A stretch of 49,026 bases of DNA, from positions 1 through 49,026 of the forward strand of contig JACRFA010000018.1 of the NCBI GenBank assembly GCA_016218065.1. The letters are read 5' to 3'. The translations under genes and the position numbers were made by a program. This stretch comes from Ignavibacteriota bacterium. Its GTDB lineage: Bacteria > Bacteroidota > Ignavibacteria > UBA10030 > UBA6906. The notes under the pieces are model-generated. The model searched no databases. It had not been told where the DNA came from and saw only the letters and a list, made by a program, of their open reading frames with translations. Within the stretch, counting starts at the first letter, position 1. Every line of letters starts with the position of its first letter. This document shows, piece by piece, positions 8,646 through 36,958 of the stretch.

Positions 8646-8774
8646 GACGTCCAAATTATTTGTGCAAGTTGAAGTTTTCTGTTAGCCCAGACGTTTGAAC
8701 GATGGCCGGTTTGGGCTGTCATTTATAGGATATGGATTCTTCACTTCGTTCAGAATGAGTCCCCTTAAAGCAAA

Positions 8775-8805: not shown

Positions 8806-8824
8806 CCTGTGGACTACAAAAGCG

Positions 8825-11944: not shown

Positions 11945-12145
11945 GAATCCTCCGAGATGTATTGTTGTTGAGATGTTAGTTAGGACTAAAAACAATACCC
12001 CCAGCACATTCCCATCACACACAAAGAATGATCGCGTTTAAGGACTTGCTCGTGCTCGAATCACTTCCTTCATGCTGCGGTCCGCGTTGAAATACGATTG
12101 CATGTCAATAGTGCATGCATGTTTCGTGGTTGAGAAACTGCCGCA

Positions 12146-12174
12146 TGCGGGCTTGCAAACATCGAAAGCCCGCA
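12146..12174 (-). terminator. Hairpin after the beta-helix gene
   Basis: TGCGGGCTT and AAGCCCGCA form a perfect 9-bp stem around an 11-base loop, 11 bases past the stop codon at 12185. Its GCGGGC core matches the hairpins at 8775-8805 and 35351-35384. It would terminate or attenuate transcription entering the FG-GAP gene. The rest of the gap (11945-12145) holds the FG-GAP ribosome site and nothing else I recognise. Confidence 0.6.
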
Positions 12175-12184
12175 CGCGCCAGAA

Positions 12185-13924: not shown

Positions 13925-13993
13925 GTTGACCTCCTATTGTTTGTTGTTGAGTTCATCTCTCACATGCTTTTGCTGAGCAAGTCCGACGACCTG

Positions 13994-17026: not shown

Positions 17027-17149
17027 TGTGACCTCCTGGGTGATTATTTCGTTGTTCCGAACAACTCAAGACTTGCTGAAAGCTCCGGCGTAGCCGCCGG
17101 TGTGTTGCATAGAACTCATGGCGTGGCGAGAACCGCCACTCAAACACCA

Positions 17150-18562
17150 TCAGGACGCGAAGAGCTTGCGTCGTTCCGCCAACTCCGTGGTAATCTGGAT
17201 CTCCGCTTGCTTGTCGATGCTGTAGAAGAACAAGCAGACTGCACAGAGCGCAAATGTAATCGCCGGGTAGATGCTCATGGTCATGACGATACCCGACAAG
17301 GCGTCTCCATTTTGCGCGGCGTTGGGAACATATCCATACGCCGAGAGAATGTATCCTGTAATTGCTCCGCCGAAGCCAAGCCCGGCCTTGAGCGCAAAGA
17401 CGATTGCGGAGAACACGATGCCGGTTGCGCGCCGCTTGTTCTTCCACTCGGAATAATCCGCAACATCCGCCATCATTGCCCACAACAACGGAATCGTGAA
17501 GCCATAGACAAACTGCCGCAGCATTTCAGTGGCGAACATCAGTTCAATGGCAGTCGGGGGCAGAAAGAAAAAGAGTGCACAGAACAGTGCAGTGCCCGCC
17601 AGGCCTCCGATGAACACGTTGCGTTTGCCAAATTTCATCGCGAGCCCTTTGGAGAAAAAGATGCCGATGATCGTGGCAACCGTTCCGAAGACATTGAAGA
17701 AACTGAAGGTGGTCGCGTAATTTTCCGTGGCTACGAAATAGCGGAAGTAGTAGAAGACCACGCTCCCGCGCATCGCTAATGTGATGAACAGAATCAGGGT
17801 CAGAATAAACATAACGCCCCAAGGACCATTCTTTAGCAAATCTGCAAAGTGGTCTTTGATCGTTCCCTTTTGCGCCGGATCGGGGTGAATACGCTCTTTC
17901 GTCGAGAGGAATGTAACAACAAAGAGTACCACTGCCAGCGACGAGAAGATTCCCATCGTGTATTGATAGCCGACTGCACTATTTCCTTCACCAAAATAAC
18001 TCACCATCGGCAAGGCTAGACCCTGAATGACGAGCTGCGCGAGCATTGCAAATACAAATCTGTACGATGAAAGGCTCGTGCGGTCTCCGAGATCTCCCGT
18101 CATCACGCCGCTCAGCGCCGAGTACGGAAGGTTGTTTGCCGAGTAGATCATCATCAACACGATATAGGTCACGTACGCGTAGATGAGCTTTCCGTCCACG
18201 CTGAAATCGGGAGTCATGAACGCCAAAAACCCCATGATGCCGAACGGCAGCGCGGTCCCAAGCACCCACGGCCGGAATTTTCCCCAGCGCGTATTGGTCT
18301 TGTCGGCAACGATGCCCATGATCGGGTCGAAGATCGCGTCCCATACGCGCACGACTACCAGCAGCGTTCCTGCCGCAGCCGCAGTGATGCCAAACGTGTC
18401 CGTATAGAACGCGAGCTGGAACATCACCATCGTTTGGAAAATAAAATTGGCGGCCGTATCGCCGAGAGCGTAGCCGACCTTCTCGCGTATCGACAGCTTT
18501 TCGGTGGATGATTTCAACGATGCCTGTGTCGTCTGCCCGATGATTTGCGTTTCAGTGCTCAT
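17150..18562 (-). CDS. GPH-family (MelB-like) sugar:cation symporter
   Basis: 470 residues with about 12 membrane helices. The first helix region (KVGYALGDTAANFIFQTMVMFQLAFYTDTFG), given here only as a block at about 29-59, and the loop DPIMGIVADKTNTRWGKFRP are hallmarks of the glycoside-pentoside-hexuronide:cation symporters. Family members import mono- or disaccharides, pentosides or xylosides with Na+ or H+. With an intracellular-type GH3 enzyme immediately upstream, it probably brings in short oligosaccharides for cytoplasmic cleavage. The start ATG lacks a strong ribosome site. The 123-base gap to the receptor gene contains two small GC hairpins (CCGGCG-tagc-CGCCGG and GTGGCG...CGCCAC). 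Confidence 0.9.
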   Translation of the reverse strand: MSTETQIIGQTTQASLKSSTEKLSIREKVGYALGDTAANFIFQTMVMFQLAFYTDTFGITAAAAGTLLVVVRVWDAIFDPIMGIVADKTNTRWGKFRPWVLGTALPFGIMGFLAFMTPDFSVDGKLIYAYVTYIVLMMIYSANNLPYSALSGVMTGDLGDRTSLSSYRFVFAMLAQLVIQGLALPMVSYFGEGNSAVGYQYTMGIFSSLAVVLFVVTFLSTKERIHPDPAQKGTIKDHFADLLKNGPWGVMFILTLILFITLAMRGSVVFYYFRYFVATENYATTFSFFNVFGTVATIIGIFFSKGLAMKFGKRNVFIGGLAGTALFCALFFFLPPTAIELMFATEMLRQFVYGFTIPLLWAMMADVADYSEWKNKRRATGIVFSAIVFALKAGLGFGGAITGYILSAYGYVPNAAQNGDALSGIVMTMSIYPAITFALCAVCLFFYSIDKQAEIQITTELAERRKLFAS

Positions 18563-18663
18563 CTGTATCGCTACTCCAAATCAGTAGGTGTTCGATGAAG
18601 AAGGTTAGTGGATTAGAGTACGTCCTGGGTTGTTTCAGCGAGCGGTGCGTCGCTCTCGACTCA

Positions 18664-20979
18664 TCAAATAACCTGCAGGTTTGTCTTCATGAGATCACGA
18701 TCGCGCGAAGAACTCCCGACCATGATCTCGAACTCGCCCGGCTCGACTACGAATTGCTTCTCGATGTTCGTGAACGCCAGATGCTCGGGTCGGATCTCAA
18801 ACGTCGCCGTTGCCGACTCGCCGGGGTTCAGCGCAATCTTGCGAAAGCCCCTAAGCTCCTTGACAGGCCTGGTTACCGAACCGACCAGATCGCGGACATA
18901 CAACTGCACAACTTCTTCACCGTAGCATTTGCCTGTGTTCTGTACCCGTACTGACACAACAGCCGGCTCACCTTTGCGGATGACCGGCTGTTTGATGTTC
19001 AAATCACTCAACGAGAATGTCGTATAGCTGAGACCAAAACCAAACGGATATAACGGGGTCACATCGTCGAACAAATATCCCCGTCGCGCGGATGGTTTGT
19101 AATTGTAATACGCCGGAACATGTCCCACCGATCGCGGGAATGTCATCGGCAGTTTTCCTGAAGGATTGTACTCGCCGAAGAGTACATCCGCCACCGCGTG
19201 TCCGGTTTCTTGTCCTAAATACCAGCACTCCAGGATCGCGTCGGCGTGTTCGTCCAGATAGGTGATTGACTTGGGTCGTCCGTTGAACAACAGCACGATC
19301 ACCGGTTTTCCGAGTGCAATGATCTGCTGCGCCAATTCATTCTGCATGCCAAGCAAATCGAGACTCGGTCTGTCGCCCATGTGAACTCGGCTCCACGCTT
19401 CACGCGAAGTTTGTTCGTTCCCTCCAAGCACGAGAATCACCGTCTCTGCTTGACGAGCCGTCGCGACGGCCTGCTCAATGAGTTTCTTGTCCTCATTGTG
19501 GTCCGGCAGATGGACCGGGTCTTCGTTCCACGATCCGCCGATGGTTATTCTGCACCCTTCACTGTACAGGACGTTGACATCAGAGCCAACTTTCTCCCGG
19601 ATTCCCCGCAAGACGGAGGTGTAGTACTTTGGCTTGCCGCTGTAACCGCCAAGCAGTTCGCGATCGGCATTCGGTCCAATGACTGCAATCGTTTTCTTTG
19701 AACGCGCAAGAGGCAAGGCGTTGTTCTTGTTCTTCAGCAGGACGATCGTTTCGCGGGCCGCTCTCAGCGCCAACTCTCTCTCACGCTCTAACTCGACGTC
19801 AATGTGGATTGATTCTGCATCGACGTAGGGATCTTCGAAAAGCCCGAGTTGGAATTTTTGCCGCAGCAGCGGACCGACCAACTCGTCAATCGCAGATTCG
19901 CTGACGACTCCCTCGTGAACAAGGCGAACAAGAAATGGGTAGCAGTCAGGATCAGGCGTTTCAAGATTTACACCGGCATTCACTGCGAGCGCGGCCGCTT
20001 CGGCCTTATCCGACGCCAGCGCATGGCTTGTTGCTTCGTCGCGTTTGTTCAGCTCGGTAATCGCATAATAATCCGACACGACAGTTCCATCAAACCCCCA
20101 CTCTGTGCGCAACACATCTTTCAGCAGCCATGCATTCGCGTGTGAAGGAACGCCGTCGATCTCATTGTACGAAGCCATGACGCTCGCTGCCTTTGCGTCG
20201 CGGATGACTTCGAGGAACGGATGGAGAAACACATCGCGCAATACGCGTTCAGAGACATTCACCGGGCCGCAGTTCATCCCCGACTCCGGTTGTCCGTGCG
20301 CGGCAAAATGCTTCAGCGTCGCGAGCACATGCTTCTTGTCGGTGTATGTTCTGTCTCCCTGGAAGCCATTCACGGCTGCGTTTCCCATCGCGGCAACCAG
20401 ATGCGGGTCCTCGCCAAATGTTTCTTCGACTCTTCCCCAGCGCGGATCGCGCGCAACATCGACGACGGGAGTCAGCGCCTGATGAGTTCCGCGCGAGCGT
20501 GCAGTGGCAGCAATCGCCGAGTAGATTGCCTGCACAAGTCCGGGATTGAATGTTGACGCAAGCCCAATCGGTTGCGGATAGCTGGTCGATTCTTTTGCGG
20601 CGAGACCGTGCAAACACTCCTCGTGAAAAATAACCGGAATACCAAGACGGGTCTCTTCAAGAAAAAACCGCTGAAGCGTATTCGCAAGTTCAGCGGTTTC
20701 TTTTGCCGTCAGTCCTTTTCCCGTGTCGCTTAGTCGAGCAATCTGCCCGATGCCATGCGGGAACTGCTGACGAAGATGGGTCAGATCGAACTCGTGCTTC
20801 TCGTTGAAAAGCAGAGTCTTCTTCTGCCCCCAGATGCACATCATCTGGCCGACTTTCTCCTCAATGGTCATGCGACTCAACAGATCGCGAACCCGATCAT
20901 CAACGGAAAGACCGGGACTTTTGAAGTCGGGCGATTCATCTTCGACAACTTGATCGATTGGAGATGTTTTCTCAGACAT
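18664..20979 (-). CDS. GH3 glycoside hydrolase (beta-glucosidase/xylosidase-like), probably cytoplasmic
   Basis: 771 residues. It starts at MSEKTSPIDQ; an in-frame ATG 75 bases upstream adds residues without homology. No signal peptide is present. Domains: the GH3 N-terminal barrel (about 20-330), with KHFAAHG, RDPRWGRVEETFGEDP and the nucleophile Asp303 in VVSDYYA; the GH3 alpha/beta-sandwich C domain (about 375-620); and an Fn3-like C-terminal domain (about 660-755). The segment HEECLHG is typical of bacterial beta-xylosidase/beta-glucosidase GH3 enzymes. Specificity (beta-glucoside, beta-xyloside or alpha-L-arabinoside) is not decidable. It is the first gene after the promoter/operator at 21152-21193 and likely leads the glycan operon. 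Confidence 0.9.
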   Translation of the reverse strand: MSEKTSPIDQVVEDESPDFKSPGLSVDDRVRDLLSRMTIEEKVGQMMCIWGQKKTLLFNEKHEFDLTHLRQQFPHGIGQIARLSDTGKGLTAKETAELANTLQRFFLEETRLGIPVIFHEECLHGLAAKESTSYPQPIGLASTFNPGLVQAIYSAIAATARSRGTHQALTPVVDVARDPRWGRVEETFGEDPHLVAAMGNAAVNGFQGDRTYTDKKHVLATLKHFAAHGQPESGMNCGPVNVSERVLRDVFLHPFLEVIRDAKAASVMASYNEIDGVPSHANAWLLKDVLRTEWGFDGTVVSDYYAITELNKRDEATSHALASDKAEAAALAVNAGVNLETPDPDCYPFLVRLVHEGVVSESAIDELVGPLLRQKFQLGLFEDPYVDAESIHIDVELERERELALRAARETIVLLKNKNNALPLARSKKTIAVIGPNADRELLGGYSGKPKYYTSVLRGIREKVGSDVNVLYSEGCRITIGGSWNEDPVHLPDHNEDKKLIEQAVATARQAETVILVLGGNEQTSREAWSRVHMGDRPSLDLLGMQNELAQQIIALGKPVIVLLFNGRPKSITYLDEHADAILECWYLGQETGHAVADVLFGEYNPSGKLPMTFPRSVGHVPAYYNYKPSARRGYLFDDVTPLYPFGFGLSYTTFSLSDLNIKQPVIRKGEPAVVSVRVQNTGKCYGEEVVQLYVRDLVGSVTRPVKELRGFRKIALNPGESATATFEIRPEHLAFTNIEKQFVVEPGEFEIMVGSSSRDRDLMKTNLQVI

Positions 20980-21151
20980 TTCGAAGCCTATAAGAGAGGA
21001 TTGAAATCCCAGGGCAGGATAAAGGCGGGTGACGTTTCGCGGTGAGGAGGTCAAAACACGATGTAACTAACGCTGGAAACCGTCACCCTCCAAAAAGCTG
21101 CTTACTCAACAAGAACGGATTTCATTTAGGATTACTACGATTCAAGCATCG

Positions 21152-24221: not shown

Positions 24222-24896
24222 TTACCTGATTGGACGCTCGCTTGCATCCTGAGCTGCATTCATGCAGCCTTCACATGACGTTCTGCGGACGAGCGTTTCG
24301 TTATTGCAAGTACGTCGAATATCAACCGCCACGGAATCGGCAATCGCTGCGACCGCCTGCTCCATCGCTGAAGCAAGCGAGGCAAAGTTCTCATTCGTCC
24401 ATCGTGGTGCAGAAGCTGAGTACACTTTGTGCAGCAGCACTTTCGGCTCATCGGCAATCAACGCGTTCGTGGTGAGGCTCAGGGCGAGTCTGAACTGGAT
24501 GTTGCCGTTATCGCTGCCGAGCATGTCGAGGACTCTTCCTTCAAGCGCGTAATCGGCTTGTAAGGCAGAAGACGTCTGGTCAGTGATCTCGCAAAACAAT
24601 CGTCGTGTCTGAAAATTGTCGATGAAGAAATCGGTGACAAGCTCGTGCGGTTCCTGAATCCACCGATCATAGTAGTGTGTGTTGATGGCATTGGTGCTAT
24701 CCGTTGTGAGGATGTACTCCGTCTCGTATGCACTTGCAATCGTGAATGGCTTGATGCGCACCGAGCCGCAGAGCGGAGCGCTTGCGGGTTGCGCCAAGGG
24801 TCGGGATTGAAGTCGATAGTACATGACGCTCGATTCACCGCAACCCGCAAGCGCCATCACGACCGAAAGCCAAAGCAGCATTTTCATGGAGTTCAT
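24222..24896 (-). CDS. ABC-transport auxiliary lipoprotein (PqiC-like)
   Basis: 224 residues. The signal sequence ends in LAGC, a lipobox, so the protein is a lipoprotein. The mature part matches the ABC_trans_aux/PqiC pattern: YYRLQS near the start, VRIKPFTIASAYETEYI, then a tyrosine-tryptophan segment (YYDRWIQEP) and a lipid-groove strand/helix core. Such proteins partner MCE complexes in lipid trafficking between the membranes. The ATG overlaps the stop of the upstream mce gene (ATGA), giving translational coupling and deciding this start over the ATG nine bases downstream. It is the last gene of the seven-gene operon. Confidence 0.8.
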   Translation of the reverse strand: MNSMKMLLWLSVVMALAGCGESSVMYYRLQSRPLAQPASAPLCGSVRIKPFTIASAYETEYILTTDSTNAINTHYYDRWIQEPHELVTDFFIDNFQTRRLFCEITDQTSSALQADYALEGRVLDMLGSDNGNIQFRLALSLTTNALIADEPKVLLHKVYSASAPRWTNENFASLASAMEQAVAAIADSVAVDIRRTCNNETLVRRTSCEGCMNAAQDASERPIR

Positions 24897-26248
24897 TTTT
24901 TGGGTGTGCGAAGAACCTGGCCTGGATTGTCAAGCAGCGTACGAACTTTCTTTCTTCCCTCTCTGCTTGTTTGTTGAATGTCGTCCAGCACTTCTTCTGC
25001 ACGGATGAGCGTCAGATTCATGCGGAGCAGCAACTCGGGTACTCCTGCCAGAAGAACTGAATCAACGTGTGTCGGCAGAGCATTGATCCTTTCTACCGCC
25101 TCCGGACTTTTGAAGAGCAGTCGTGTTGCCAATCCATTGCCGCCATCTTCTTCGAGAACTGCGCGGGCGCTCGATGTTGCCGCGCGCAAATCTCCGATCA
25201 TGTCGTTCATCTCTGCCAAGGTGTTCCGTTCCAGCAAGAAGCGCGACAGCATTCCGTTCCCCTCTTCCTTCGAACTAACTGAGGAAACGTTCCGCAGAAG
25301 TTCGTTGATGTCGGCAACTGCACGCTCGTAGCGGTTTGCCGGCGACGCGTTGATTTTGGATCGCGAGAACAAGAATGCCCCTGCGTTTTCCACTAAACCC
25401 TGGACATCCAGATCCAATTGTGGCGCAAATTCTTTGACGCTGGATCGTCGATGCTCAATCAACGACACGGTTGAGTATGACGGCAGCAGTTGAATCGATG
25501 GCTTGGCAATTCCAAACAACGTCGCAACACGCACTTCCGAGCCGTAGCCCGTCAGATGCGCAAACGTCGGGCGCAACGAATCAGGGAACCCGCCTGCACT
25601 CACGACTTCATTGCTGTCCACTTCCACACGAATGCGTGTGAACGATTCGATGTCGCGCCACTCCAACTTCATCCCGCCAAATCCAACAACATCTCCGTCG
25701 CGCAGAAAAGCCGACTCGCCAGCTCTGAGCGTAACCTGCTCATCGTTGATCATGAGCACGCCTGACTGCGCTTCGGGCGTCAGGAGCCAAGCGCCTCGTT
25801 GTGCTCTGGAGAGTTGGAATGTTGTCGGTGCATGACGCAGAACTGCTTGCGTGAGCGACATGAGAGTGAGTGTCGTCTTTCCGTTGTCGAATATGATTGA
25901 ATCGGGCGGGAAGAGAGTCGCAACTTCCGATCGCACAACAAGTCCCGGCTGCACAACGCGAAGTTGCAGACCGAGCAGTGCTGGCCGAATCTCGCGTATC
26001 GTTCCTACTTTCACACGATGCAAAAGCACTTGCGTCCGTTCATCGACGTCCACGTTGCCCGGATAGTACACGACAAACGCCGGCTTCGTTTCATCCGACA
26101 TCGTTCTGCACACGAACGGAATCACCGCAAAGACAATCGCAATGAACGCGCCGAGCACAGCAACTCCCCCGACAACATTCTTCCAATCGATTTCGTCTTT
26201 GACCTGAACGGGTGTTTCGGGAGGTATGACCGAAGAGTGCGATGCCAT
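24893..26248 (-). CDS. MlaD/Mce-family lipid-binding protein
   Basis: 451 residues. One N-terminal transmembrane helix (about 27-48, VVGGVAVLGAFIAIVFAVIP) anchors it in the inner membrane. It is followed by an MCE-like domain (VYYPGNVDVDERTQVLLHRVKVGTI) and a long helical C-terminal region (about 280-440) with heptad-like leucines, as in MCE proteins that form hexameric rings with a helical tunnel. Between them, residues about 155-215 form an extra beta-rich segment (SAFLRDGDVVGFGGMKLEW) that loosely resembles an FHA or similar beta-sandwich. That assignment is tentative. The gene starts one base from the stop of the permease gene. No MlaF-type ATPase is adjacent, so it must be shared from elsewhere. 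Confidence 0.78.
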   Translation of the reverse strand: MASHSSVIPPETPVQVKDEIDWKNVVGGVAVLGAFIAIVFAVIPFVCRTMSDETKPAFVVYYPGNVDVDERTQVLLHRVKVGTIREIRPALLGLQLRVVQPGLVVRSEVATLFPPDSIIFDNGKTTLTLMSLTQAVLRHAPTTFQLSRAQRGAWLLTPEAQSGVLMINDEQVTLRAGESAFLRDGDVVGFGGMKLEWRDIESFTRIRVEVDSNEVVSAGGFPDSLRPTFAHLTGYGSEVRVATLFGIAKPSIQLLPSYSTVSLIEHRRSSVKEFAPQLDLDVQGLVENAGAFLFSRSKINASPANRYERAVADINELLRNVSSVSSKEEGNGMLSRFLLERNTLAEMNDMIGDLRAATSSARAVLEEDGGNGLATRLLFKSPEAVERINALPTHVDSVLLAGVPELLLRMNLTLIRAEEVLDDIQQTSREGRKKVRTLLDNPGQVLRTPKK

Positions 26249-26249
26249 C

Positions 26250-27053
26250 TCATATCTCCTTCCACAATAGAATCGTCAGCACAACGCACATCGTGATGGA
26301 CGTGACGCTGCTTTCCCACACGGCGTAGTGGAGATCATACGTTTCCTCGCGTCTGGAGATGAAACGCTCGGCGGCTTGAATCCCAAATGCGCAGGCAGTG
26401 TACGCGACGATAGCGCCATAGAGAATCGACTTCCACAGTCCTGAAACAACGGCTTGAGAAAATGTCTCGTTGGAGAGAAAGTCCTGAATATCCGCCGGAG
26501 AAAATGAAATCTGATTGCCGCCCGAAAAGTAACCCGTGCCGACACAGGCAACAAGAATAAGAAAGAACGCTCCTGAGGTGATCACCGTCGCGACAATTTG
26601 CGGCAACACTTCCAACTCAATGGCATGCGCTCCGAATGTCAGGGTCTCCGTCGAGCCGCGTGTTGCTGACGACGCAAACTTTGCGGCGATGGTTGCGCCG
26701 GTACGCGCAGTGAGAACAAGCGCGAGCAAAAGCGGCAACACATCGCGCAACACAACGGGCATGATGACTGCTTCAAAATGCGGACGCAATATTTCGCCAA
26801 GCGCCGCCGTCACAACTCCCAATCCAAATCCAGCAAACGCGCCGACGCCCACAATTACAACAATGCCGCGCATAAACGCTTTGACTGTCTGCCGCATGCT
26901 TTTGCTGAGAACCTGGAGCCGCTTCGGCGTGACCAATCGCGAAATCGCGAGCAACGTTGCTTCGCCGAATCGCACCGAAAACGTCAGCAGACTCAGCGGA
27001 TTCTCGATCCAGACATGCCCGACACGGGCGAAATATCGAAGCACTCCGTTCAT
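26250..27053 (-). CDS. MlaE-type permease of an MCE lipid ABC transporter
   Basis: 267 residues with about five or six hydrophobic helices. The motif LTARTGATIAAKFASSATRGSTETL matches the conserved cytoplasmic coupling region of MlaE permeases (R-x-G-x-x-x-A-E-L-G-x-M-x-x-x-E-Q in Proteobacteria), though the usual GTM-x-x-x-EQ is altered. The N-terminal amphipathic helix is followed by a long membrane hairpin (VKAFMRGIVVIVGVGAFAG). Two bases separate it from the phosphoesterase stop upstream and one base from mce downstream, so the three are in one transcript. It would drive lipid movement with an ATPase not encoded in this operon. Confidence 0.82.
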   Translation of the reverse strand: MNGVLRYFARVGHVWIENPLSLLTFSVRFGEATLLAISRLVTPKRLQVLSKSMRQTVKAFMRGIVVIVGVGAFAGFGLGVVTAALGEILRPHFEAVIMPVVLRDVLPLLLALVLTARTGATIAAKFASSATRGSTETLTFGAHAIELEVLPQIVATVITSGAFFLILVACVGTGYFSGGNQISFSPADIQDFLSNETFSQAVVSGLWKSILYGAIVAYTACAFGIQAAERFISRREETYDLHYAVWESSVTSITMCVVLTILLWKEI

Positions 27054-27055
27054 GG

Positions 27056-28600
27056 TCAGATCGTTATACGTTCGACAAGTGAGAGCGGCTCCATGCGTTC
27101 GGCGTCGTCATTCCATCGCTGCAACGATGTCGGTTGAAGCCGCCCGCGCTCATCAGGCGCTAGCCGGAGAAATGTGTATGTCTTGTCATGACGTATCTCC
27201 GCGCTCGATGCTTCGAGAATCGGAATCCATGTGCCGGTGTTGAAGTACCAGCGCCCGTTCTCTTCCAACTGTTCCGGATTGTGTGTGTGCCCGAACGTGA
27301 CAATCCTATACTCCGAATGGTTCATGAGAAGCGATTTCGCATCTTCGGCGAGGGAGTTTGGTTCACGCAATCGGAACCACGCCACAAAGCGCCCAAGCCA
27401 GTACGAAACAATTCCTGAGCCGACGATGCCGCCGAGATCTCTCAACACGCCGATCCCCTGTCGCAACACGAACCCCGACACCGGCGTTCCCGCTGTCGAT
27501 GTCTCTGACGAAGAACTGCTCAGCAGCGGACTCACGATGTCGAACAGTTGGATCGCGACAACGAGAACCGGTACGCCAATCGCAAGAACAAACAGCGCGG
27601 GCATGCCGAACATGAACGCGAAGTATCGCTTCCTGATCATCTTCAATCCGAACGGAAGATGATAGAAGAGAAGCTTCAGCGCGAGCGGAAAATGTTCCCG
27701 CACGAGAAACGAGAGCATGCTCTGCTGCGGACGGACATTGTCGATGTAGGGATAGGAAAGCTCGATCTTGTTGATGAGATAACGATTGAAAAACGAGCCG
27801 AACGGAATATTCAACTCACTCCGTTTCTTGAGCAGAATGGCGCCCACGACACTGGAGAACTTGTCGAAGCAATGTCCGTGCTCGACGTAACAGTCGCCGT
27901 CGATCAACAATGATTTGTCAACGAACGTCACCGCGGGTAAGACGACTTCCGCCAGAATCTGTTCGACCGGCAATGCGCGGGACTCGGCAATGTGTTCGGC
28001 AAGAACGAGGCGCAGGTAATTCCGCACCAGCAGCCAATACCATTCGAGATCATGATTTCCTTTCGTGATGATCAGAGAATGGCCTGAATCAATCCACTTC
28101 GCAAGCGACTGAAAGATTTCAGGATGCCCGGCAACTGAAGCCGAGAGTTTCCACACCGACTTGTAATCATCGGTCTTCAGTCCGTATTCAATCTCCTTTT
28201 TAGAAACACTCGCACGCAGCTCGTCGATAGTCTTGTTCACGCCAAGGCTGGAAAGAATGTGTTGCCACGCCAGTAACTCCGCTTCACTCGCAGGGACGCG
28301 GACAATGCGGATGAAGTCGATGAAGTCCCCGTTGATGATCAGCAGTGCCTTCTTCTTCGGCTCTTTCAACAAACCGATTTCAACAAAACGCCTGAAAGAT
28401 GCATCGGCAAGAAAATTCTCCGTCCCGCTGAACACGCCATCCTTCCGCTTCCCTGCCGCAATATGCAGATCGCTGATGACAATAACTTCTCTGCCGTGAG
28501 AACTGATCGTCACCGGGTCGCTCGATGAATCTGCGTAAGCAGATGCGGCGCCGCTGCTCTCGCAGTTGAGAAGTATTATCGCTGCTGTTTCGGTATTCAT
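27056..28600 (-). CDS. Membrane-associated calcineurin-like metallophosphoesterase
   Basis: 514 residues. All metal-binding motifs are present in order: SDLHI (D and H), GDFID, GNHDLEW, EHGH and GHTH near the C terminus, with the expected YFNTGTW after it. Two hydrophobic segments (about 318-340, FMFGMPALFVLAIGVPVLVV, and about 378-405) interrupt the phosphatase fold and would tether it to a membrane. LpxH-type UDP-diacylglucosamine hydrolases share this motif order, and a lipid phosphodiester substrate would suit its place beside MCE lipid-transport genes, but that is inference. Spacing is 18 bases after the cytochrome gene and 2 before mlaE. Confidence 0.8.
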   Translation of the reverse strand: MNTETAAIILLNCESSGAASAYADSSSDPVTISSHGREVIVISDLHIAAGKRKDGVFSGTENFLADASFRRFVEIGLLKEPKKKALLIINGDFIDFIRIVRVPASEAELLAWQHILSSLGVNKTIDELRASVSKKEIEYGLKTDDYKSVWKLSASVAGHPEIFQSLAKWIDSGHSLIITKGNHDLEWYWLLVRNYLRLVLAEHIAESRALPVEQILAEVVLPAVTFVDKSLLIDGDCYVEHGHCFDKFSSVVGAILLKKRSELNIPFGSFFNRYLINKIELSYPYIDNVRPQQSMLSFLVREHFPLALKLLFYHLPFGLKMIRKRYFAFMFGMPALFVLAIGVPVLVVAIQLFDIVSPLLSSSSSETSTAGTPVSGFVLRQGIGVLRDLGGIVGSGIVSYWLGRFVAWFRLREPNSLAEDAKSLLMNHSEYRIVTFGHTHNPEQLEENGRWYFNTGTWIPILEASSAEIRHDKTYTFLRLAPDERGRLQPTSLQRWNDDAERMEPLSLVERITI

Positions 28601-28618
28601 GGGATAATTGAGATGTAT

Positions 28619-30934
28619 TCACTTCCCCGGTTCGTCATCGAGCGCGAGCAAGAACGCGACAAGCGCTGAGATTTCCTCGCCGCCCGGCGTATCGTCAATC
28701 CAGTACTCGTGCCCGATGCCTTCAATCTGCAACGAGGTAATAGCGACTTTCCGTGACGAGCCGGGAACAGGATAGATCTTCTGTTGATTCGCGGTGATGA
28801 CTTTCGCCCGCTCATCCTGCAACAGCAGCGCCTGCAAACTCAATGCTGCGTTTGCGCGAAGATACGTTTCCGTTTCCGCTTCGCGTCGGGTAAGAATTTG
28901 CGCCACACCATACATCTTGTCGTTGTCAGGTCGCTTCAAGAGCGCAATCAGATCATCTCTTTCGCCGCCGGCTTCGGGCTTCAATGCAACCGCAACGCCG
29001 CCATCATGCAAATACGGCGCAGAACCCCAGAGGTACCGGAGCGTTGATGTTTTGTAGCCGGGCTTCTTTCCGCCAAAAATATTCGAGACGAAGCCCGCGA
29101 ATCCGCCGACCGTTGCTTTGCCCGAACCCGGTTGGTACGGAGGCGCGAGCGCCTGCAGAAGTTCAGTCGCTTTTGTTCGTGCAATGTTCGTCCCAATTTC
29201 TTCCCTCGGCACAATTCTATTGTCGGTCAGTATCGGTCCCGCATGACAATCGGCGCAACCATTACTCTTGAAGACTTCATACCCTTTCTCGATCAAGCCA
29301 CGCGTACGCGCATTCGAGAGGAGCGCAGTCCGGTTCGGAGGCGGCTGCACCCAGTCGAGCATCACACTCACGGCCTCCGTGACGAACTCATCTTTGCTCA
29401 GTCCGTAGCGCTGCTCAAGATCATCGAGGTTGTATGCAGTTCTGTAGAGAGGCGGCGTGACCACTCGAGTACCAAGCAGTCCGACCAACGGACCGCGCTG
29501 CTTTCCATCATCACCAAAATCACCGGGCGATCGGAGCCGATGAGCATTGCCCGGACGATCCACAATCTCATCCGGAATCGCGCCGGGAACGCCTTTGATC
29601 AACACCATCGCTTCGGGATCGAGCAAACCCGGAACTCCATCCGATACGCCCAGGATGTCATCAACAAGTTTCTTCCGCATGCTGCCGTTATGCATCACCG
29701 CGGGCGAACGCGAAACAACAATGTCGGCGTACTCTGCGGCCGAGAGCGCGGAGTACAAGCCTTGTTCTTCCCAGAAGATGATCTTCGCGGTTTTGCCTCC
29801 GCGATCATTACAGAGCGCGACGAGCTGCGTAAGATCGAGTCCCGTCGTCCATACATTATTGTTGCGGTCCGACGCATTCAGCATGACGCCATCGATGTTG
29901 AATGGCCAGTTGAGATGAGTGAACAACGAAGGAAACTGCAACGGATTGTGCAATCCATCGGGAGTGTCGTCGGCGAATCCCCGCGGCATCATCACAAGTC
30001 CGCGGTTCACTTCCTTTGCGATCGTGTCGGGGTTGGTTTTATACGTCTTGAGAATCCGCTGCGCCCACTCTCTTGCGGCGCTCGGCCTTGATTGTTCGGG
30101 AATGCCGGAGTTTTCGAATCCCGCAATATCGTTCGCCGACAGCGCGAAAATCCAACCGAGATGCACATCCTGATTGCCGATTGCCCACGCGTGCTGCGGT
30201 TTGTACGGACTTCCTTCCGTCGGCTCGCTCAGCTTTGCAGACTTGAGGTCGGGCTTGCCATCCCAATCGACATCGAGAGAGTAGTGACACAATGCGCAAC
30301 TCACGCCGAGACGAAATTTTTCTCTCCCCGCAAACGGACCAATGCCTTGAGGGATGTTCGAGAACTTTGCGGGATTGATGACGTAGGGCAACGACTTCTC
30401 GCTGGAGGAGACGTGGACCGGAACTATTCCAAGCGGCAGCGGCGAGCCGGCTTCCACGTCTAGACCCGTATGAAGTTTTTCGGGAACTGGAATGGTTGAG
30501 CTAAGAAACGTATTGGGAGGAAACGAGAGAACAAGATCGCTCGTGTACGCGTCGCCGTTGCCGAGAAACAGATTGCCGCGAACGCCGTCGAGCGCGTCAA
30601 GAGCTTGCAGAAACACCTGGAGTACGGAAAGATTCTGAACAACGTTTCCCTTTCTCACCTGCACGGTTCCGTTCATCAAACCAACAATGTCCGTGAAGAC
30701 TCGCTCGTTGCCGAATGTTTCCGCTCTGAACCATTGCTCGCCGAGAGAGATCATCTGGCGGTGCACGCTTTCGGGAATCGTGTCGCGATACACCGGACGC
30801 GACGCTCGTTCAGGTGGAGAGTTCAGTACATCGTAATCACCCCAATCGCGTCCCGAGGGTTGGCCGCAGCCTCGATAGATCGCCGATGCCAGAACTATGA
30901 GAAGCGAGAGAAAGAGAATCCGCACAACCACCAT
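28619..30934 (-). CDS. Exported two-heme cytochrome c
   Basis: 771 residues. Start fixed by AGGAGGCAGC before the ATG. A signal peptide or uncleaved anchor (MVVVRILFLSLLIVLASAIY) precedes a cysteine at 23, but the preceding residues (YRG) do not make a good lipobox. Two c-type heme sites are clear: CALCH at 213-217 and CADCH at 560-564. Between them is a large conserved-looking region without further cysteine-heme motifs, and no third heme site was found. Size and heme spacing loosely recall the RoxA/MauG-type diheme proteins, but I cannot confirm this. It likely takes electrons from the GMC flavoprotein encoded two genes upstream, or itself acts as an oxygenase or peroxidase. Confidence 0.8.
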   Translation of the reverse strand: MVVVRILFLSLLIVLASAIYRGCGQPSGRDWGDYDVLNSPPERASRPVYRDTIPESVHRQMISLGEQWFRAETFGNERVFTDIVGLMNGTVQVRKGNVVQNLSVLQVFLQALDALDGVRGNLFLGNGDAYTSDLVLSFPPNTFLSSTIPVPEKLHTGLDVEAGSPLPLGIVPVHVSSSEKSLPYVINPAKFSNIPQGIGPFAGREKFRLGVSCALCHYSLDVDWDGKPDLKSAKLSEPTEGSPYKPQHAWAIGNQDVHLGWIFALSANDIAGFENSGIPEQSRPSAAREWAQRILKTYKTNPDTIAKEVNRGLVMMPRGFADDTPDGLHNPLQFPSLFTHLNWPFNIDGVMLNASDRNNNVWTTGLDLTQLVALCNDRGGKTAKIIFWEEQGLYSALSAAEYADIVVSRSPAVMHNGSMRKKLVDDILGVSDGVPGLLDPEAMVLIKGVPGAIPDEIVDRPGNAHRLRSPGDFGDDGKQRGPLVGLLGTRVVTPPLYRTAYNLDDLEQRYGLSKDEFVTEAVSVMLDWVQPPPNRTALLSNARTRGLIEKGYEVFKSNGCADCHAGPILTDNRIVPREEIGTNIARTKATELLQALAPPYQPGSGKATVGGFAGFVSNIFGGKKPGYKTSTLRYLWGSAPYLHDGGVAVALKPEAGGERDDLIALLKRPDNDKMYGVAQILTRREAETETYLRANAALSLQALLLQDERAKVITANQQKIYPVPGSSRKVAITSLQIEGIGHEYWIDDTPGGEEISALVAFLLALDDEPGK

Positions 30935-30950
30935 GCTGCCTCCTGCACGT

Positions 30951-31364
30951 TCACTGCACTTTGGGTTTCTTGATCATGCCGATGAACATCGTCACGAAAC
31001 CGATGCCGATGAGCACGCCGCCAATCGGCACGAGAATGAACTCTTTGCCGGCGGATGTTGCGCCGCTTTGAATCACGCCGAGAATAAATCCTCCGGGCAA
31101 CAGCAGAACTCCCGTAACAAAAATAATCGCCGCCCACTTTCGGACTTGTTCCGAGAGATTTACCTTGTCGAGGTAGAGGCCGAACAAAAGTGTCACGATT
31201 CCCAGACCCGCAGCGTGTGCGTGTCCCATCGGAATGAGATGCTGCCGAATCGGACTCTCCGTCCAGAACGGATTTTGCGTGATGATCAGATACGACATTC
31301 CTCCGCCGCTCACAAGAAGCACCGACAACAATCCCCAGCCAAGAATTTGACAAAAGCGTTGCAT
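30951..31364 (-). CDS. Small four-helix membrane protein
   Basis: 137 residues with four hydrophobic helices (about 8-28, 50-66, 77-100 and 110-131). A GHAHAAGLG motif at the start of helix two contains two histidines that could ligate heme, as in many small respiratory membrane proteins. I do not recognise the family. It starts with ATG after AAAGGAACGAACAGC and sits 16 bases before the cytochrome c start and 58 bases after the GMC fusion stop. A role as membrane electron carrier or assembly partner for those two proteins is plausible but unproven. Confidence 0.6.
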   Translation of the reverse strand: MQRFCQILGWGLLSVLLVSGGGMSYLIITQNPFWTESPIRQHLIPMGHAHAAGLGIVTLLFGLYLDKVNLSEQVRKWAAIIFVTGVLLLPGGFILGVIQSGATSAGKEFILVPIGGVLIGIGFVTMFIGMIKKPKVQ

Positions 31365-31422
31365 GCTGTTCGTTCCTTTCTCACAATTAACTTTGACTAG
31401 TGACCGCCTGCCTGCTTAATCG

Positions 31423-34400
31423 CTATTCCCCCGCCGCAATCCGCTCGCTCGCGAGCGACGCCAGCGCCATGATCGTCCACTGCGGATTGACGCGAATGCC
31501 GCGCGGGAAGACGCTCGCGTCACAAACATAGACGTTCGCACAATCCCTCACACGAAAATCAAGCTCAACAACACGCTCGGCAATGGAATCGCTCGCCATC
31601 ATATTCCCACCTTGCGGATGAGCTGTCACAAAATTGAAGAAGCGTTTCTCGACGAAAATCTTTTCCATCATCCGCACAACGTCTCCGATATTTTTGTCGA
31701 GATGGAGACGAAGGACAGGATGCGTGGGAAGGAGAATCTCTTTTGCGCCAGATGCTTGCGCGATCTGTATGATCGTGATGAGTGATTTTCTCATGCGATT
31801 CAAGTCGGACGCGGTCGGCGACCACTGAATCGCACGCCCGAACAAGACATCGCGTTCACGCGACACCGATCCCGCCGGATCGCTTCCAACCAGAGCCGTG
31901 AAGTTTACAGCTCTCGGATAAGCACTCATGAGCTGCGCATGGTGTTCGAAATATTGGGGGAAGGAAATCGCGTACGAGCCGGGCGGAAAAAACGTCGTCT
32001 CGAAAACAGCCTCCTGCGATTCGGGCCGCGCGTACATCGCCATCTGCAATCCGTCGAACGCATTGACCGGCTCATCGAAGATGACAACAGGAGGAACGGC
32101 ATAATTGCACGAGAGTCCCTGACCGACTCCGCTTCCGCCGAGTTCGCTTCTCATCAGAAAGCGACTGCTAGCAATCGCGCCCGCCGCGACAATCACTGCT
32201 TTGCGGACCTTGATTCTGGCAAAGCCGCCGTTCTCCGTGCGAACGATGACCGACTTCGCCTTCTGTGTGCCGCCATTCTTCTCCACTTCGCACCGCACAG
32301 CGCTCACGGATGAAACTATGGACACACCGTGCGAGATTGCCCAGGGAATGTACGTCTCGAGAACGGAAAGCTTTCGCATGTACTTGCAGCCGCAGTTGCA
32401 GAGACCGCAGCCCGTACAATTGAGGAAGTTTCCGCTGTTCCGTTGCGCAGGCTGAAGGGGACCGAGTCCCTCAAGCACATCGTTGTATCTCTTCACTCCT
32501 TCGGTGAAGAGCTGCTCGACACGAGCATTCACCGCGTTGTCGGCAACGACGCCGATGTTGATTTCATCTGCGACGCGTTGGTAATGCGGCCCGAGATCGT
32601 CTGCATCGAAGCCAAATGCGCCCCACTCTCCCCGTGCAATCTCCGGCATCTGAAAGCAGACCGCGTTGTTGATCACTGTCGTTCCGCCAACGCATTCTCC
32701 CTGAAGAACCGTAAAGTCGAAGCTGCGCGAGACTTGCAGGCCGCCATCGGTGTAGAGCGTGCGGAAGACCTTCATCTCATCATCGGAAAAATCCCGCTGA
32801 GGGCTGTAGTAGCCTCCGCGTTCGAGAACGCAGATGGAGTCCTTGTTTCCTTTGGCGAGTCCAAGGCGATACGCAAGCAATCCGCCTGCCGCGCCGGAGC
32901 CAATGATGCAATAGTCGACCTCCGATGGAATGCGCGATGCGCTTTGAACAGCAGTCGTGCGCGGCGAGAGGAGCCGCTCGCCGTTACGATTGCTGGGGCG
33001 CGTTCCGCCCGTCGGGCCGTCGGGAAGTGGCGCAGCGTCAACTCCAAGCGGCGGACGGCTGGCAGCCATCTCGCCCTGCAAGCGCTCCCGCGCATCCGGC
33101 TCAACGTATCCTACCTGGCGCCACGAGCGTTGAGTTGTGAAGTACGACAGCGTCACCAACGCATGACAAATGTCCCCTATCTGATAGAGAAACTCAGCGA
33201 GCGCGGGAAGCGCAGCCTTCACACGCTCATGCCGCGCACGAAGCATGTAGCGCCGCAGCATCCATCGTTGCTCGTCGCGCGACATCACCGAAAACGCAGG
33301 ACGCAGAAACAGAAGCACAGGGAAAACATGTTCGACCAACCAGAACGGAAAGGCCAGAAGTCCGCGGCGGCGTCCTCTGATCCCAACAATGTACTCGTCA
33401 ATGCGTCGCACAACTTCCTTCGCAGACAACTCAGGCGCTTGCGAAGACTCGCGGAGCGCTTGATGAAGAGCGACGACGCATTCAGCCGAGCCGGGCTTGA
33501 GCGCTGTGATCTGTAGATCGACATGGTACTGAAGCCTCCGCAGCGCGAGCAACAACGCAAGTCCGCCGCCATCAACAATCAGATGATTCACCATGAACCA
33601 CGGCAGAGTCACCGGAACGCCATTTCGGCTGAAGAGAACGGTGCTGCCTTGCAGTCCGTAGATGATCGTGGCGAGAAGGCTGAACGAAAACGCGATGACG
33701 AGCGTCGGCGCCATGTAGCGCCGCATGTCGTCGCGCTTGTACAGAAACCAGCCGAACGCCGCCAACGTGCCGTACTTGGTGAGACTGTTGCTGACCAGCG
33801 GATCAGGTCCGCCGAAGACAGCGCCAAGTCCCGACTCCGGCGCGCCGGCAATTCTAAAATACAGAATCGCGGCTGTGAAGAATGAAAAGAGAGAGGCAAA
33901 GGCAAGAAAGTATAATCGATAGAACGAAGAAGCGGGCGAACGAACTTCCGCATCGACAGTCTCCTCCAGACTCCGGTCTTGTGAAGGCGCGATGAGATAG
34001 TACACGAGAACGACAAGCAGCGCGCCATCACCAATTACACTCGAGAGAAGGAAACTCTGCTCATCGGGAAACAGAGGATTGACGGGATACGCAAAGTACA
34101 ACCCGAGAGATGCGCCCACGGAAATCAGATGCCCGATAGTCAGAAGGAGCGCCGCTTCGCGCCTGACCCCCGCATTGAACGCCGCAAGGTTCGCGAGCGA
34201 CACCATCAGCGTGATCTTCATGATCGTGTTGATCGTCTCCGGCGGATTGATGAAGAACATTCCGACGACAGGCAGATCTCTTCCGTTCACCATCAACCCG
34301 ATCAGCATGTACACGAAGTAGGTTCCGTACGCGAAGAAGATGAACCGCATGAAGTAGAAGCCGAAGTCACGTCGGGGCTTCATCGTGTTCACGCCAACGA

Positions 34401-34944
34401 CTGAGTCGCGGAACAATGCTGTTTCTTCTTCGAGAGAAAACGCGGCTGGCTTCTTCCAGCGCCTCACGATGAGCTGCTGCAGTAAGACGGAGACAGGAAC
34501 AACAATCGTTTCGATCACGCCCGCGACGATTGCTATCAAAAGAGGATGTTGCAAACCGAAGATTGCTCCTTCGCGAAATTCCCAGATGCGCGGCGCCCAA
34601 AGTTTTCCCGTGCTGTGAAACCCTCCTGCTCCGAATTCCCACGTCATGAAGAAGTAGTGATTGAACAACACAAGAAATGCAAACGCGCCGCCGACAATCG
34701 CCATTGGCACCCAAAGAGCGGACTTGCGCAGAAGTACCAGCAGCGGTCCGAGACCGAACGCCCAAATCCCGATGACAGCATAGATCGTCATGGGGCTGGC
34801 ATTCTCAAACACATCCAGCACTTCGATGCCGACATATTCGAGCGCAAAGCCGACGATGCCGGTGATTAGTATAGAGAGTATCATCCGCCAGGTCGTCGAG
34901 AGTGAATCGAGACCCGAAGGTTCCCATCGTTTATCAAAGAACAT
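31423..34944 (-). CDS. Fusion of a polytopic membrane domain with a GMC flavin oxidoreductase
   Basis: 1173 residues. Residues 1-470 contain about eleven to twelve hydrophobic helices with no recognised family. Residues 505-620 form a helical cap ending in ITALKP-distal SYFTTQRSWRQVGY, like the N-terminal part of long-chain-alcohol/cholesterol-oxidase-type GMC enzymes. From 676 a GMC domain begins: FAD motif IIGSGAAGG (680-688), VGGTTVINN (752-760), a cysteine cluster at 843, 846, 849, 851 and 853 (NCTGCGLCNCGC), HPQGG and NPQWTIMALA near the end. GMC enzymes oxidise alcohols, sterols or sugars. No signal peptide is needed, since the first helices insert it. It is the first gene of the seven-gene operon, so expression of the lipid-transport genes follows it. 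Confidence 0.85.
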   Translation of the reverse strand: MFFDKRWEPSGLDSLSTTWRMILSILITGIVGFALEYVGIEVLDVFENASPMTIYAVIGIWAFGLGPLLVLLRKSALWVPMAIVGGAFAFLVLFNHYFFMTWEFGAGGFHSTGKLWAPRIWEFREGAIFGLQHPLLIAIVAGVIETIVVPVSVLLQQLIVRRWKKPAAFSLEEETALFRDSVVGVNTMKPRRDFGFYFMRFIFFAYGTYFVYMLIGLMVNGRDLPVVGMFFINPPETINTIMKITLMVSLANLAAFNAGVRREAALLLTIGHLISVGASLGLYFAYPVNPLFPDEQSFLLSSVIGDGALLVVLVYYLIAPSQDRSLEETVDAEVRSPASSFYRLYFLAFASLFSFFTAAILYFRIAGAPESGLGAVFGGPDPLVSNSLTKYGTLAAFGWFLYKRDDMRRYMAPTLVIAFSFSLLATIIYGLQGSTVLFSRNGVPVTLPWFMVNHLIVDGGGLALLLALRRLQYHVDLQITALKPGSAECVVALHQALRESSQAPELSAKEVVRRIDEYIVGIRGRRRGLLAFPFWLVEHVFPVLLFLRPAFSVMSRDEQRWMLRRYMLRARHERVKAALPALAEFLYQIGDICHALVTLSYFTTQRSWRQVGYVEPDARERLQGEMAASRPPLGVDAAPLPDGPTGGTRPSNRNGERLLSPRTTAVQSASRIPSEVDYCIIGSGAAGGLLAYRLGLAKGNKDSICVLERGGYYSPQRDFSDDEMKVFRTLYTDGGLQVSRSFDFTVLQGECVGGTTVINNAVCFQMPEIARGEWGAFGFDADDLGPHYQRVADEINIGVVADNAVNARVEQLFTEGVKRYNDVLEGLGPLQPAQRNSGNFLNCTGCGLCNCGCKYMRKLSVLETYIPWAISHGVSIVSSVSAVRCEVEKNGGTQKAKSVIVRTENGGFARIKVRKAVIVAAGAIASSRFLMRSELGGSGVGQGLSCNYAVPPVVIFDEPVNAFDGLQMAMYARPESQEAVFETTFFPPGSYAISFPQYFEHHAQLMSAYPRAVNFTALVGSDPAGSVSRERDVLFGRAIQWSPTASDLNRMRKSLITIIQIAQASGAKEILLPTHPVLRLHLDKNIGDVVRMMEKIFVEKRFFNFVTAHPQGGNMMASDSIAERVVELDFRVRDCANVYVCDASVFPRGIRVNPQWTIMALASLASERIAAGE

Positions 34945-35350
34945 GAGCTTTCCCGATTTAGAAGTTTAAGAGTTCAGGAAACAGATTCTCGTCGACAAAT
35001 GCTTTCACTACAACTCAAGTGCGAGACAATCCGCTACATTTTCTCCCAGAAATGTTCTGCCGAGTTTGACAGCAACGAAAAGAAATCTACTCGTAATGGC
35101 ATGGCTTGATTAGTCGTTTCGATGTGGGGTGATGTTGGAGACTTCGATACTCATGGTTCCTCTCACAATGTAAGGTCAACATCTTCTTCGAGATCGAGAA
35201 AAGCGTCGCGTACACAGACGCGTGCTGCTGTCCACAACAACGTTCTAACGTGGGAGAGCAAGATACAATGATGGGTGACTTAATGTCAAGAAGTTTTTTG
35301 GGGAGAGAGATCAGGCCTCTGCTTGACAGAGGTCGAAGGTGCAACAGCGG
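34945..35350. other. Gap without recognised genes
   Basis: About 400 bases between the GMC fusion start and the YceI terminator. It should hold the promoter of the seven-gene operon. A GGGAAAGCTC ribosome site precedes the GMC ATG, but I find no convincing -35/-10 pair. An 85-codon frame on the minus strand (35087-35344) has no domain or signal and is dismissed. Confidence 0.5.
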
Positions 35351-35406: not shown

Positions 35407-35952
35407 TTATGCTGCTTTGTGAACAACCTGCGCCTTGGTGAACTCGGCAAGGATCTCGATCTTCACTTCGTTGCTGACGACTACGCCGCCCGCCTCCGTC
35501 ATGGCATTCCATTGCAGTCCGAAGTCGAAGCGATTGATCTTCGCCCTGATTTCGAAGCCGGCAACCTTGCTGCCTCCGAATCCTGCAACCGTTCCGTTGT
35601 AGATGACGTCGAGCGTAACCTCCCGTGAGACGCCACGGATCGTCATGATGCCGTCAACTTGAAGCTCGTGGTCTGAGAGTTTCTTGACGGATGTTGAAGT
35701 GAACGCGAGCATCGGGTATTGCGCCGCATCGAAGAAATCAGCCGACTTCAGATGCGCGTCGCGCTGTCCGTTCTTCGTGTTGATGCTGTTGGCGTCCGCC
35801 TCGAACACAATTTTCGCATCGGTGAAATCATCGCTCTCACCTTCGATCGTTGCGGAATACGAATCAAAATGTCCCGTCACTGTCGAAACGACGAGATGCT
35901 TCACCTTGAAGTTGACTTCGGAATGTGTCGGGTCGATTGTCCAGCGTGTCAT
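35407..35952 (-). CDS. YceI-family lipocalin-like protein, cytoplasmic form
   Basis: 181 residues, the usual YceI length without a signal peptide. Family motifs: TRWTIDPTHSEVNFKVKHL at the N terminus, GHFDSYSATIEG, a central AQYPMLAFTSTSVKK and ITIRGVSREV-like MTIRGVSREVTLDV. YceI proteins form a lipocalin-like barrel that binds a polyisoprenoid or similar hydrophobic molecule. Because export is lacking, a cytoplasmic role is expected. AAGGA lies ten bases before the ATG. It has its own terminator, and a Crp/Fnr regulator gene lies 150 bases upstream on the same strand. Confidence 0.92.
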   Translation of the reverse strand: MTRWTIDPTHSEVNFKVKHLVVSTVTGHFDSYSATIEGESDDFTDAKIVFEADANSINTKNGQRDAHLKSADFFDAAQYPMLAFTSTSVKKLSDHELQVDGIMTIRGVSREVTLDVIYNGTVAGFGGSKVAGFEIRAKINRFDFGLQWNAMTEAGGVVVSNEVKIEILAEFTKAQVVHKAA

Positions 35953-36102
35953 AGGTAGTTCCTTTGTGTTTGATAATGATATTGGTTAACTGACTGCACC
36001 AATATAGCATCACCCCAAACCCGGCGCATTCACATCTGGTAAAAAGAGTGATGAACGTATGATAACTACATGGCGGGATACGATCCGGGCGCAGGGAGAG
36101 GA

Positions 36103-36681
36103 CTACTTCTGCGAAAGCTCCTTGCGAATGCGGCTGAGCGACTGCGGCGTGATGCCCAGATAGGAGGCAATCTGGTTCTGCGGGACTTGCTCGACGAGCG
36201 CAGGATACGTCTTCATGAATGTGAGGTATCGATCTTCTGCCGAAGTTGTGAGCGATTCGGTGAGGCGTCGATGCGTAGCAATGTAGTTTGCCTCTAACAA
36301 CAAACGAAAGAAGCGCTCCATCTTCGGCACACTCTCAAGCAGCTGTTCTCTAGCTCCTCGTTCAAGAAGCAACACTTCGGAATCGTGCACCGCGTCGATG
36401 AAGTGTGTGGAAGCAGCGCCACAAAGAAAACTCTGCAAATCCGAAATCCACCAATCCGCAATGGCGAACTGCAATACGTGCTCTTCGCCTTTGTGGTCGA
36501 CGGAATACGCTCGAAGACAGCCGGAGTTGACGAACGCGAGATATTTGCAGACGTCTCCCTCCTGCAGAAGAAACTGTCGTCTTCTCACTCTGCGCGGAGT
36601 GAAGAACGTCGCGCAGCGTGCGAACTCCTCTTCTCCAAGATGAACTCTCTTCTCGATATGTGCCCGCAGAAGTTCAAGCAT
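36103..36681 (-). CDS. Crp/Fnr-family transcriptional regulator
   Basis: 192 residues from MLELLRAHIEKRV. A longer in-frame start 135 bases upstream adds a stretch without homology. It has an N-terminal cyclic-nucleotide-binding-like beta-roll (FTPRRVRRRQFLLQEGDVCKYLAFVNSGCLRAY) given as residues about 25-60, a dimer helix and a C-terminal helix-turn-helix (QNQIASYLGITPQSLSRIRKEL as the recognition end). The phosphate-binding arginine pattern of true cAMP binders is not clear, so the ligand is unknown. This is the short Bacteroidota-type Crp/Fnr group, often autonomous regulators. It may control the adjacent YceI gene. Confidence 0.85.
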   Translation of the reverse strand: MLELLRAHIEKRVHLGEEEFARCATFFTPRRVRRRQFLLQEGDVCKYLAFVNSGCLRAYSVDHKGEEHVLQFAIADWWISDLQSFLCGAASTHFIDAVHDSEVLLLERGAREQLLESVPKMERFFRLLLEANYIATHRRLTESLTTSAEDRYLTFMKTYPALVEQVPQNQIASYLGITPQSLSRIRKELSQK

Positions 36682-36958
36682 GAGCGTGCGTACCGATGAA
36701 AAGACAAGTGATTTGATCTTGAGAGAAGATACAAAACACTCGCGGCTTGGAGCAAGCGCGCTCCTTGCGACTGAATCTCCAGGGACGTTGACGAGAAGTT
36801 GTCTTTTCCATTTCACTGCGCAGTAATTGAAACGAGAACGACGGCTTAGTTTTGAGAATGCTACTTTTCGTCCACGTCCCTAGCGCAAGAGGATCAGCGT
36901 TCTCGTTTGAGTGACGCCATTTGTGGATCAAAGCCGGTGGCGATCGTCGGTCTATTCC
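36682..36958. other. Gap without recognised genes
   Basis: About 280 bases upstream of the Crp/Fnr start and past the small secreted protein stop. It should contain the promoter of the regulator. No hairpin, repeat or credible reading frame was found. Confidence 0.4.

Follow-up and report, generated by a model that had tools for sequence, protein, structure and literature searches.

A group of seven genes in the genome of an Ignavibacteriota bacterium (assembly GCA_016218065.1; 5.17 Mb in 319 contigs, 97% complete) probably represents a genuine, not yet described means of modifying and transporting an envelope lipid, because the same gene group is found in related genera. The genes occupy positions 24222-34944 on the minus strand of a 49,026-nucleotide stretch of contig JACRFA010000018.1 (the window). 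They encode a membrane-fused GMC oxidoreductase, a small membrane protein, a di-heme c-type cytochrome, a metallophosphoesterase (MPE), an MlaE-family permease, an MlaD-like protein and a PqiC-like lipoprotein. We propose, at somewhat less than an even chance, that they form one transcription unit that modifies and moves an envelope lipid, in which the GMC and MPE work as a pair and either supply a divergent MCE conduit or are supplied by it. The families are known and the novelty lies in their combination; searches of the available literature found no description of it, in agreement with a preliminary description of this DNA, which knew of no operon with this set.

The powering, direction and cargo of MCE systems are open questions. 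In the present operon, an MCE-type transporter that lacks an ATPase gene of its own is linked to enzymes expected to act on what it carries, and the lipid acted on by the MPE and the GMC would name that cargo and possibly the direction. The operon also gives function-bearing neighbours to membrane-fused GMC enzymes and to an LpxH-fold phosphoesterase family, and we know of no described role for either.

Conservation of the gene group

The seven open reading frames were confirmed where the preliminary description had placed them, with gaps of 58, 16, 18, 2 and 1 bases and one 4-base overlap, and their order and packing support one operon-like unit. A promoter or terminator splitting the group had been considered in that description, and no excess of either was detected inside it. 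Terminator-like sites numbered 18 (14.5 ± 3.7 expected), and promoter-like sites were at chance level, the minus-strand ones being at 35289-35260, before the GMC start, and at 33879, within the GMC gene. The first of these, a sigma-70-like promoter candidate (35260..35289, minus strand), matches the consensus at a level not above chance.

A scan of the species genomes with the MPE profile gave 38 named loci. Besides the window, 22 distinct loci carry a GMC gene on the same strand as the MPE gene and within 3.3 kb of it. Spirosoma telluris and Flavitalea are among the cultivable carriers of this pair. The order GMC, MPE, MlaE, MlaD-like protein, lipoprotein is identical in loci L048 and L053, which belong to another genus of another family than the window organism; the genes there overlap or are near-adjacent, and the GMC is encoded separately from its membrane part. 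In locus L051 the MPE, MlaE, MlaD-like and lipoprotein genes are retained, with genes for a membrane protein and an ALO-type FAD oxidase upstream in place of the GMC. Chance adjacency is unlikely for GMC-MPE and for MPE-MCE, given this synteny.

The MlaD-like profile was searched genome-wide, independent of position, and matched 4 of 391 genomes of the class, the matches being the window, L048, L051 and L053 loci. Across the phylum (395 genomes) only the window's own copy was matched. Among the genomes searched, the MlaD-like family is confined to the MPE neighbourhood. The preliminary description had treated the GMC, cytochrome and mce genes as one set. The GMC-mce linkage held up, being present in three of the four genomes that carry the MlaD-like family, so that the refuting outcome named in that description, GMC and mce genes usually apart, did not arise. 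The cytochrome failed as a core member (see below).

In the GMC tree, the window GMC and the long fusions from G044, L043 and Spirosoma telluris (L056) form a group with full support, and the GMCs of L048 and L053 cluster with that of Ferruginibacter paludis (L046). Forcing the three MCE-linked GMCs into one clade was rejected (approximately unbiased (AU) test, p = 1.9e-7), in a tree with some long end branches. The GMC thus joined, or was replaced in, the MCE-containing operon at least twice, from two GMC lineages, which argues for a functional link.

The metallophosphoesterase

The MPE (27056..28600, minus strand; 514 aa), left uninterpreted in the preliminary description, was the most conserved partner. 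It scored 27.4 bits against Metallophos (cut-off 21.5), and an AlphaFold model built from 37 sequences reached a pLDDT of 82.7. The model was closest to LpxH (VIA Z 15.9, 2.9 Å over 202 residues; next group 12.8), and LpxH structures headed the Foldseek results (E = 8e-5); a sequence-level search of the PDB with the MPE gave no match. The likeness is one of fold, a calcineurin-like fold with a helical cap as in LpxH (UDP-2,3-diacylglucosamine hydrolase), a phosphoesterase of the membrane-surface lipid type, and lipid binding by the cap is putative. Residues of metal-ligand type are invariant (D44, H46, D92, N182, H183, H241, H438 and H440), N182 and H183 across all 37 sequences. The latter two are part of a GNHD motif, whereas the LpxH motif is GNRD. 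The MPE further differs from LpxH in a large helical insert with a hydrophobic, possibly membrane-embedded hairpin (residues about 290-410) and in its patchy distribution (5 of 296 phylum genomes). A signal peptide is absent, and the hairpin is predicted to leave the two halves of the active site on the same side. The MPE may work like LpxH; because of the GNHD motif and the hairpin insert, membership of LpxH is not claimed. An anti-phage role, raised by a weak match to NF053862, was dropped after no PADLOC match was obtained at 1e-3.

The neighbours of other MPE copies are also of lipid type (alpha/beta hydrolase, ALO-type FAD oxidase, 3beta-HSD/epimerase type), and a wider lipid-type neighbourhood appears to recur around the MPE, judged by the families encoded. 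At loci L036, L044, L051, L042, L045 and L046, the MPE stands beside 3beta-HSD/epimerase-type, Rce1-like CAAX protease, ALO-type FAD oxidase and lipase-like genes. Two families without a Pfam match were also observed near the MPE, a lipoprotein-like one of ~290 aa in ten loci and one of 190 aa in nine; the loci listed for them are L029, L035, L036, L037, L039, L042, L045, L054, L015 and L018.

The GMC oxidoreductase fusion

In the GMC fusion (31423..34944, minus strand), the oxidoreductase part (residues ~675-1165) follows about ten predicted transmembrane helices (1-470) and a basic linker (470-660). Both domains scored above the Pfam cut-offs (PF00732, 84 bits; PF05199, 58 bits), and the motifs are intact: the FAD motif GSGAAG (682-687), CTGCGLCNCGC, AHPQGG (H1109) and VNPQWTI (N1153). 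H1109 and N1153 are conserved across the long-fusion group. Full-length relatives were found in G044 (L017), L043 and L056, the last split by a frameshift. The G044 genome is of the same order, and its GMC matched with an E-value of 6e-233; the other six operon genes were not found on the 9.8-kb contig that carries it. The window GMC retains the CxxCGxC..GC cysteine motif (residues ~842-854) of shorter GMC relatives, whereas the motif is missing from the complete long-fusion relatives, L017 and L043.

The ten helices, with a surplus of lysine and arginine in alternate loops, place the GMC domain on the cytoplasmic side, as predicted by simple hydropathy and not by a trained predictor. A possible eleventh helix at residues 529-547 would flip the predicted side. 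A related-locus search with the GMC fusion and tblastn searches with the cytochrome and the MlaD-like protein, against plasmids, gave no matches.

The MCE-type transporter genes

The permease (26250..27053, minus strand) belongs to the MlaE family (PF02405, 52.3 bits; cut-off 22.5), and its profile matched the MlaE chains 6ic4/6z5u at 1.3e-5. In MlaE, the cytoplasmic loop between transmembrane helices 2 and 3 forms the coupling helix to MlaF (PMC7790496). The canonical SEQ(I)xxL motif of this loop (E-Q-x-x-x-L) is replaced in all four members of the family found here, an alignment-based result from which loss of function is not inferable. The lipoprotein (24222..24896, minus strand; lipobox LAGC) is PqiC-like, with a predicted place in the outer membrane, and matched ABC_trans_aux (PF03886, 40.8 bits; cut-off 26). 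As with the GMC and the MPE, the family assignments that the preliminary description gave to these two proteins were borne out by curated Pfam cut-offs.

The protein between them (24893..26248, minus strand) has one N-terminal transmembrane helix, an MCE-like start and a long C-terminal region. It matched no Pfam family, PF02470 included, and an hhalign comparison with the genome's own MlaD was not significant. The label MlaD-like is a weak one, based on position, the N-terminal helix and two low-scoring MCE matches in the PDB. In L053 (12666-14264), the MlaD-like gene contains an in-frame insertion of near-identical PSPLKRGSKKEMEEAVDSTLQGE repeats.

Neither the window nor the surroundings of the sister operons L048, L051 and L053 contain an ABC ATPase gene. 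The absence noted in the preliminary description is therefore local, and genome-wide it does not apply: the genome has two MlaE genes, the window copy and a canonical one on contig C30 flanked by MlaF and MlaD. This MlaF is the only one in the genome, the next match having 39% identity. To judge from the gene content, the conduit would either share the one MlaF or need no ATPase.

The nearest described system is the Mpc (Mla-Pqi chimeric) system, MpcEFDA of Brucella abortus, whose single operon also combines a permease of MlaE type with a long protein of MlaD type (a weak label in the window operon) and a lipoprotein of PqiC type (PMC12436622). Mpc keeps an ATPase gene, whereas the window operon has none, its coupling helix is degenerate, its MlaD-like protein has diverged beyond recognition by Pfam, and it includes two or three additional enzymes that are not among the four Mpc components (PMC12436622). 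With the Mla phospholipid transporter (MlaFEDB) it shares a PF02405 permease and a putative MCE-like partner directly downstream; MlaF and MlaB are absent from the window operon, the canonical copy being elsewhere in the same genome (PMC7790496).

The cytochrome and the small membrane protein

The cytochrome (28619..30934, minus strand) is a predicted exported di-heme protein of the CCP/MauG/RoxA type. At 771 aa it is about double the size of CCP, and it has the two heme sites expected from the preliminary description (CALCH 213-217 and CADCH 560-564), as well as an APYLHDGGV signature around H643. The C-terminal heme region matched CCP chains. The PYLHDGGV part is close to the PYLHNGSV signature reported for MauG, PA2077 and PA2078 (PMC4496055). 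Two CxxCH sites, the doubled size and the PYLH(N/D)G signature are shared with the rubber oxygenase RoxA and the FadCcp oleate dioxygenase PA2077; the heme sites are 347 residues apart in the window cytochrome, compared to 199 in RoxA and 235-245 in PA2077/78 (PMC4496055). Scores were far under the curated cut-offs for the RoxA/FadCcp type and related families (PF21419, 17.4 of 26.7; NF040606, 23.3 of 150), and the oxygenase activity is putative. The AlphaFold model, with few relatives available, had a pLDDT of 30. We infer from the motifs that the cytochrome may be a di-heme oxygenase or peroxidase of the RoxA/FadCcp type acting on lipid.

The cytochrome was found in 2 of 391 genomes. The other copy (G461, locus L033) is 53% identical over the whole length and lies ~6 kb from an MPE in divergent orientation, a placement that position alone would produce in ~0.2% of cases (12 kb of 4.9 Mb). 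Among 296 genomes drawn earlier from the phylum, the window's own copy of this cytochrome was the only one. By its distribution, the cytochrome appears to be an add-on of one lineage, outside the conserved core. The small membrane protein (30951..31364, minus strand; 137 aa, with a GHAHAAG motif) gave no Pfam match above cut-off. It has distant relatives in two other genomes of 150, away from any MPE in the stretches seen.

Proposed mechanism and alternatives

In the proposed mechanism, the hydrophobic insert would anchor the MPE at the cytoplasmic face, where this enzyme would strip a lipid of its phosphate or nucleotide headgroup. The lipid alcohol released in this way would be oxidised, on that side of the membrane, by the membrane-anchored GMC with FAD. 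An MlaE dimer, a tube of the MlaD-like protein and the PqiC-like lipoprotein would carry the lipid between the inner and outer membrane, with a borrowed MlaF or without a dedicated ATPase. In the window lineage, this lipid or one of its breakdown products may be oxygenated by a periplasmic RoxA/FadCcp-type di-heme enzyme. The simplest picture is a lipid conduit with the enzyme pair on its cytoplasmic side and the di-heme enzyme on its periplasmic side. Export of a lipid made in the cell is slightly favoured over import followed by oxidation, because an LpxH-like enzyme would act on a biosynthetic, headgroup-activated lipid. We give a small chance to an MlaE-MCE-PqiC conduit without ATPase coupling that is driven by inner-membrane dephosphorylation and oxidation of the lipid cargo, with the periplasmic di-heme oxygenase as an accessory; if true, this would be metabolically driven intermembrane lipid transport.

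Several points weigh against the proposal of one lipid route. The two halves can work apart, since MCE genes are missing from most GMC-MPE pairs and the G018 genome (L051) keeps its MCE part with no GMC match anywhere. Because L048 and L053 share a genus, the MCE set is represented by just three genera from two families. The window MPE stands apart from the three other MCE-linked copies in the MPE tree, where a single clade of MCE-linked MPEs was neither shown nor rejected (AU p = 0.166); their separate origin could not be shown either. The MlaD-like identity is weak, the best PDB matches being two MCE proteins at E-values of 0.75 and 0.92, with no other below 1. The single transcript is predicted from gene order and packing, and that the GMC and MPE act on a lipid is something we infer.

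Two neighbouring functions could instead share one transcript, with a GMC-MPE pair for a membrane alcohol beside an ordinary Mla/Mpc-type phospholipid transporter that borrows MlaF for outer-membrane upkeep, and with no common substrate. The many GMC-MPE pairs without mce genes and the mce genes of G018 without a GMC suit this arrangement, as does the one MlaF of the genome, which could be shared. It nevertheless seems unlikely, if by no means far-fetched, since the MlaD-like family always accompanies the MPE (4/4), two separate GMC lineages were joined to that family, and the permease deviates from canonical MlaE at the coupling helix. The preliminary description had favoured a GMC that oxidises a lipid or sterol in the periplasm and hands its electrons to cytochrome c, in a system tied to the import or export of lipid. 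The gene order GMC, small membrane protein, cytochrome agrees with such a chain, and MCE systems such as Mce4 can import sterols. This chain is now very doubtful: hydropathy and charge place the GMC domain in the cytoplasm, the second genome with the cytochrome has no GMC, and the cytochrome resembles di-heme oxygenases and peroxidases, the motifs having led us to reject a plain electron carrier. A sterol or hopanoid substrate was also rejected, as the genome gave no SQHop_cyclase_C match and the GMC scored 63.3 bits against an equivalog cut-off of 850 for the cholesterol oxidase NF058674. Mce4 and cholesterol oxidation in actinobacteria do bring together MCE lipid transport and an alcohol-oxidising flavoenzyme; the window operon differs in having no recognised sterol genes, and in its operon, permease and GMC type.

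Lipid scavenging, along Mce4-like logic, would begin with a terpenoid or fatty acid from outside the cell, which the di-heme enzyme would cleave or oxygenate, the MCE conduit import, and the MPE and GMC process for catabolism. The signature and doubled size that the cytochrome shares with RoxA/FadCcp enzymes (PMC4496055), a YceI-like gene upstream, and the lipase-like and FAD-oxidase genes beside other copies of the MPE are in keeping with this. We consider it quite improbable, as the operon has no catabolic genes, an LpxH-like phosphoesterase suits synthesis more than catabolism, and the cytochrome is not part of the core.

Surrounding genes

Genes for a YceI-like protein (lipid/isoprenoid-binding type) and a Crp-like regulator (35407-36816) precede the operon on its own strand, at a distance of 462 bases. 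Translations inspected by eye point to a set of glycan-utilisation type elsewhere in the window (1192-21054 and 47082-48575), with GH127-like, GH97-like and beta-galactosidase-like proteins, an esterase, a TonB receptor, a sugar/cation symporter, a GH3 protein and an L-arabinose-isomerase-like open reading frame.

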